A DNA stretch of 64,000 nt from an uncultured Alphaproteobacteria bacterium. GTDB lineage: Bacteria > Pseudomonadota > Alphaproteobacteria > MPNO01 > UBA830. Location: positions 37,411 to 101,410 of the forward strand of contig CAJWSW010000001.1 in assembly GCA_913046035.1 (NCBI GenBank), in the 5' to 3' direction. Shown here piece by piece: positions 4,767 to 5,346 of the stretch (within the stretch, counting starts at the first letter, position 1; each line of letters starts with the position of its first letter). Position numbers and translations under genes: made by a program. Below the pieces are notes generated by a model. It searched no databases, was not told the origin of the DNA, and worked only from the letters and a program-made list of their open reading frames with translations.

Positions 4767-4800
4767 AAAAAAAATAGGGCGGCTCGCGCGGCCGCCCTAT
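4767..4800 (-). terminator. Rho-independent terminator of the minus-strand peroxiredoxin gene
   Basis: On minus strand: ATAGGGCGGC-CGCGCGA-GCCGCCCTAT followed by an 8-T tract. Confidence 0.85.
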
Positions 4801-4820: not shown

Positions 4821-5273
4821 TCAGGAAATGGAATCCAAATCATTAATGACTTGTTCGGGGTGATCGGCGGCCTTGACCTCATCGTAGGCAAAGTGAATTT
4901 TGCCATCTGGTCCGATTAATACTGATTTCCGAGGTGCCTTCAGGCTGCCTGCTTCTGAAACACCAAATGCAATAGATGTGCTTCCATCCAAATCACTCAG
5001 CAAATCATAAGGGAAGGAGAATTTATCACGAAACGCGGCGTTATCTGCTGGGCTATCAAAAGAGATCCCCAGGATTGATGTGTTGCGGTCTTCAAAGTCT
5101 TGGATTCGATCACGGAACCCGTTGCCTTCGATCGTTCAGCCGGGTGTATCGGCTTTTGGATACCACCAAAGCAGGACGTAGCGGCCGGCAAAGTCATCTC
5201 GCGTAACTGTCTTGCCATCCTGGTTCGGGAGGCTGAAAGCCGGCGCATCGGTGCCGGTGGCGATTAGGGCCAT
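4821..5273 (-). CDS. Bcp/thiol peroxidase-type peroxiredoxin, predicted selenoprotein (UGA at codon 46 read as selenocysteine)
   Basis: ATG at 5273 with GGAG upstream. MALIATGTDAPAFSLPNQDGKTVTRDDFAGRYVLLWWYPKADTPG[TGA]TIEGNGFRDRIQDFEDRNTSILGISFDSPADNAAFRDKFSFPYDLLSDLDGSTSIAFGVSEAGSLKAPRKSVLIGPDGKIHFAYDEVKAADHPEQVINDLDSIS*. Only the codon at the peroxidatic Cys position is TGA; the frame is open on both sides. Confidence 0.88.
5107..5134 (-). promoter_or_regulatory. Putative bacterial SECIS element immediately 3' of the UGA codon
   Basis: Minus strand after TGA (5138-5136): A CGATC gaaggca ACGG-GUU-CCGU GATCG. Lower 5-bp stem, 5' bulge, 4-bp upper stem, GUU apical loop beginning 18 nt after the UGA. 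Confidence 0.65.
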
Positions 5274-5346
5274 TCAGAAAACTCCATTATAAATGTTAAC
5301 GATAATATTTATAACACGGTCTTTAAAAGTTCAAAATAGAGGTAAA

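Follow-up and report, generated by a model that had tools for sequence, protein, structure and literature searches.

The minus-strand frame at 5273-4821 has an in-frame TGA where Bcp-type peroxiredoxins have their peroxidatic cysteine, and raises the question of whether an ordinary gene has been broken or whether the TGA encodes selenocysteine (Sec). The locus lies in a window of 64,000 nucleotides, the whole stretch of DNA that was analysed, from an uncultured alphaproteobacterium. On the sequence-level evidence for the gene, a predicted SECIS element and the Sec machinery, this is almost certainly a genuine selenoprotein, a Bcp/PrxQ-type peroxiredoxin with Sec as the peroxidatic residue. The gene and its parts are the following.

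4821-5273, minus strand: predicted Sec-peroxiredoxin (Sec-Prx) coding sequence (translation; Pfam AhpC-TSA, 4.8e-30; AF2 pLDDT 95.2)
5136-5138, minus strand: TGA predicted to be read as selenocysteine, U46, at the peroxidatic position (80 best relatives: 78 TGA, 2 TGC)
5157-5159, minus strand: Pro39 codon of PxxxTxxU (invariant, 27-row alignment)
5145-5147, minus strand: Thr43 codon, the catalytic Thr of PxxxTxxU (invariant, 27-row alignment)
4929-4931, minus strand: Arg115 codon (invariant, 27-row alignment), presumably the active-site Arg of peroxiredoxins
5282-5285, minus strand: Shine-Dalgarno GGAG (sequence)
4774-4800, minus strand: intrinsic terminator, a 10-bp stem and T run directly 3' of the gene (sequence)

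The read-through frame has 150 codons and a stop, with UGA as codon 46. The ATG (5273-5271) opens 45 sense codons ending in ...WWYPKADTPG, and after the TGA (5138-5136) another 104 codons in the same frame, TIEGNGFRDRIQDFED...VINDLDSIS, lead to the stop TGA at 4823-4821. Start, GGAG, 45 codons, TGA and continued frame are exactly as an earlier note on this DNA had stated, and its observation that the translated protein has no other Cys also holds, with zero Cys codons in the frame. The ORF listing at the locus has an out-of-frame ORF at 4997-5248, and the 3' piece in the earlier listing is due to an in-frame TTG at 5003-5001. Pfam AhpC-TSA spans the read-through protein end to end (residues 7-127), and the TGA is the peroxidatic position of PxxxTxxC in this match, in agreement with the earlier assignment to the Bcp-type peroxidatic Cys. 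Since the whole frame matches AhpC-TSA and the TGA is conserved in close relatives, its presence is not due to chance. The neighbouring genes (YggT, FolD, GlcG-like, MFS) are common to near relatives only and no conserved operon was found; no redox partner was seen among them.

The AlphaFold2 model on the 27-row alignment has a pLDDT of 95.2 and a pTM of 0.91, and Foldseek groups it with Bcp, PrxQ and the 1-Cys AhpE, with TM about 0.9. Pro39, Thr43, residue 46 and Arg115 are invariant in this alignment. The peroxidatic site carries the motif P39xxxT43xxU46, which together with the PF00578 domain matches the description of Sec-peroxiredoxins (TxxU motif as in PMC13188914). Position 51 is Asn. 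Some relatives have a single Cys elsewhere, at varying places, and no resolving residue is conserved.

We infer the catalysis and the reductant from this active site. The conserved Pro39/Thr43/Arg115 pocket would activate the selenolate, which would reduce peroxide and be converted to the selenenic acid. Because the protein lacks Cys, resolving the selenenic acid would take a thiol from outside (thioredoxin, glutaredoxin or glutathione), giving a 1-Sec mechanism. Such a cycle is the most likely one, being favoured by the Cys-free window protein, by Asn51 and by the relatives' lack of a conserved resolving residue. The earlier note had proposed a 1-Sec enzyme; the absence of Cys from the frame stands, and the mechanism is a reading of it. 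Sec might instead be inserted into an enzyme that is not mainly a peroxidase, such as a thiol oxidase or a sensor, in which case the truncated 45-residue product would signal a shortage of selenium. The window protein's lack of a resolving residue would suit such a role, and no assay of the clade was found in the literature searched, but PxxxTxxU and Arg115 are conserved in 27 of 27 rows and the fold matches peroxidases such as 1-Cys AhpE, which makes this role improbable.

Of the 80 best relatives in the reference genomes (52-80% identity), 78 have TGA at exactly this codon; most are Alphaproteobacteria, with MAGs of gamma, SAR324 and Gemmatimonadota among the rest. TGA is also present here in every one of the 20 other orthologues found in 60 related genomes. 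The orthologue with TGA is thus found in 21 genomes of the same order, its own included, and selA is found in 20 of these (Fisher p = 3.7e-8 for co-occurrence across 61 genomes, with their relatedness ignored). The exception, G022 (93% complete), carries the orthologue with no selA detected, probably because its assembly is incomplete. The copies in a Phycisphaerae MAG (L069) and a Flavobacteriales MAG (L089) are near-identical to the alphaproteobacterial ones, and their contigs are probably mis-binned.

The two of the 80 with TGC are L113 (Caenispirillum bisanense MAG) and L117 (Rhodospirillaceae MAG). These provide the Sec/Cys pairs at this column that the earlier note had called for, and all Cys Bcps have TGC or TGT there. 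selA has no match in the L113 and L117 genomes and a match in six of six UGA genomes tested. The L113 and L117 Cys proteins group with the Sec proteins in the tree. The pattern suggests a reversion from Sec to Cys upon loss of the Sec trait, a direction that we infer from a tree of 149 columns.

A bacterial SECIS is defined as a hairpin shortly after the UGA, with a small apical loop containing a guanosine (PMC1088965). Such a hairpin, GGGUUC-CGUGAUC-GAAUCC, lies 18-36 nt after the U of the UGA, with G as the second loop base.

5102-5120, minus strand: apical hairpin of the predicted bacterial SECIS (comparison of 95 UGA genes)
5092-5131, minus strand: whole predicted SECIS with outer stem, 5131-5126 pairing with 5097-5092 (MFE structure)

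Every stem pair, six in all, is conserved in 92-95 of the 95 UGA genes, one pair shows a double change from G-C to A-T on both sides, and the loop reads CGUGA(U/C)(C/A) in 95 of 95. In the two Cys orthologues, none of the six pairs is kept. The predicted outer stem recurs in single-sequence folds of relatives. Across 79 distinct sequences, codon choice is frozen from +4 to +11 after the UGA (Phe TTC in 79/79, Arg CGT in 79/79, Ile ATC in 74/75, Gly GGG in 71/78, and the Arg at +10 always CGA or AGA). Upstream of the UGA, and again from about codon +12 on, it is largely unconstrained, and Cys-Bcp genes that encode these residues draw on several synonymous codons. So few stem changes occur that covariation itself is weak, and the synonymous suppression is the stronger evidence for a SECIS. 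The near-invariant hairpin and the suppressed synonymous choice are consistent with what would be expected of a bacterial SECIS. The fold that the earlier note had proposed to check at 5095-5140 stands as a conserved hairpin with a loop G, centred at 5120-5102, but its single-sequence MFE is not better than that of shuffles (z 0.65 to -0.58), and it is the comparison among relatives that supports it.

These comparisons also bear on whether the TGA is a sequencing error, or whether an ordinary Bcp gene has suffered a nonsense mutation in its Cys codon. Standard ORF calling splits the gene, and the same genome has an intact Cys Bcp paralogue (C34:22615-23064), as a pseudogene would allow. Against this, dozens of species at 52-80% identity, assembled independently, have the same TGA and an intact frame downstream of it, the protein is conserved on both sides of the UGA, and the hairpin is constrained. 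Purifying selection acts downstream of the UGA, where differences between relatives are over twice as frequent at third as at second positions (e.g. 57 vs 14), and the frame there has not accumulated the stops that the earlier note had named as a possible refutation. That note's argument that a random nonsense mutation is unlikely is supported by the same data, and a pseudogene or error is extremely improbable.

The Sec machinery for the predicted selenoprotein is present in the genome (2.78 Mb in 127 contigs, 91% complete). A tRNA-Sec with anticodon UCA (76.4 bits) is on contig 17, adjoined by selB and selA. The selA match is 574 bits, and the selB fragment within the locus scores 170.8 bits, below the curated cut-off, with the locus boundary removing the N-terminal part of selB. 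The selD match (307 bits, contig 26) is the C-terminal part of a longer frame of 781 aa (L010:262-2529) with an oxidoreductase-like part upstream and Cys in the SelD active site (MRCGGCGAK). Similar NDH-SelD fusions have been reported in marine data (PMC2398784). All four of selA, selB, selC and selD, for which the earlier note had proposed a search, are thus present, which excludes their absence, its main refuting condition. SelB with Sec-tRNA(Sec), bound to the hairpin just downstream, would decode UGA46 as Sec. If UGA encoded a different amino acid throughout the genome (Trp, or Cys under an altered code), this would account for the read-through, but it has next to no probability, since TGA terminates the Sec-Prx gene itself and several orthologues, homologues have Cys and not Trp at the column, and the Sec machinery is present while its absence goes with TGC.

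A tRNA-Sec nested inside selB is known in Alphaproteobacteria (PMC9312934). This arrangement was rejected here, as the tRNA-Sec lies outside selB, 67 nt past its end. FdhA was rejected as the reason for the Sec machinery, as a full-length homologue without an internal stop is present. No SelW-like (Rdx) selenoprotein was found in the genome, and the Sec-Prx gene is the sole match to a SECIS-like UGA pattern in it.

Related genomes carry other Sec-containing candidates. L142:1501-1863 in G010 is a Prx-like selenoprotein candidate with YRGHWUPYC (UxxC), near selA (contig 15, about 113-116 kb); UxxC Prx-like proteins are a known selenoprotein family. A second Sec-Prx group (L034:1501-1959, L123-L130, L150), found in genomes G010, G012, G014, G018, G020, G021, G023, G025, G026 and G138, branches beside the window's group with 100/100 support. 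Its motif, (F/V)PRA(F/Y)GxxUTxEAxGFRD, has Gly in place of the catalytic Thr of TxxU, but Sec and the SECIS hairpin of the window's group are both retained. This second group may represent a distinct enzyme, and no description of it was found in the reviews PMC9312934 and PMC13188914. One member, L124:1501-1947 in the single-contig genome G012, has an extra in-frame TAG where relatives have Gln (NADxEKPS), and is a decaying copy or an error.

Reading the raw sequence can reveal a selenoprotein that is split in two by ORF calling. The clade is a natural experiment, with Cys and no SECIS where selA is lacking, and UGA with a nearly frozen hairpin where selA is present. This contrast could be used to test what advantage Sec gives a marine bacterium in removing peroxide.

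Sec-containing peroxiredoxins are a known class, as the earlier note had said (PMC1088965, PMC2398784, and the reviews PMC9312934 and PMC13188914, which list them). The first demonstration of the family (COG1225/PF00578, TxxU) came from Eubacterium acidaminophilum (Sohling 2001, as cited in PMC9312934). In the Sargasso Sea, with 43 genes, it ranked second in abundance among selenoprotein families (PMC1088965), and the Global Ocean Sampling data contain 253 Sec-Prx genes (PMC2398784). The window protein shares with it the domain, the motif, Sec at the peroxidatic position and a marine bacterial source; the metagenomic genes fit it in source and motif and may belong to its clade. The host is a marine Rhodospirillales-like alphaproteobacterium, unlike the clostridial host of E. 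acidaminophilum PrxU. The protein scores 35.4 bits against the NCBIfam PrxU equivalog NF040737 (cut-off 270), which points to another, shorter branch of the family, and 108.6 bits against the Bcp equivalog NF006960 (cut-off 140), which places it in neither curated equivalog, though within the wider peroxiredoxin family.

E. coli Bcp and Xanthomonas PrxQ, which are thioredoxin-dependent thiol peroxidases, have a similar fold and about 30-40% identity, but the window protein has Sec for Cys and lacks a resolving Cys both at +5 (Asn51 here, Cys in PrxQ) and at any other position. In the tree, the Sec proteins separate from the Cys Bcps with 100/99 support. They could, although we hold this somewhat doubtful, be a separate old peroxiredoxin lineage and not a Bcp with one residue swapped, committed to selenium and to a 1-Sec cycle with its own reductant, which moved between marine lineages with a fixed SECIS and in which loss of the Sec machinery would force Cys reversion and SECIS erosion. 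The mycobacterial 1-Cys peroxiredoxin AhpE also has a single redox residue and a similar fold (TM about 0.9), but has Cys, not Sec, and is only about 28% identical. The Sec-Prx here is well supported but ordinary: its selenoprotein family has been known since 2001 and is common among marine bacteria.
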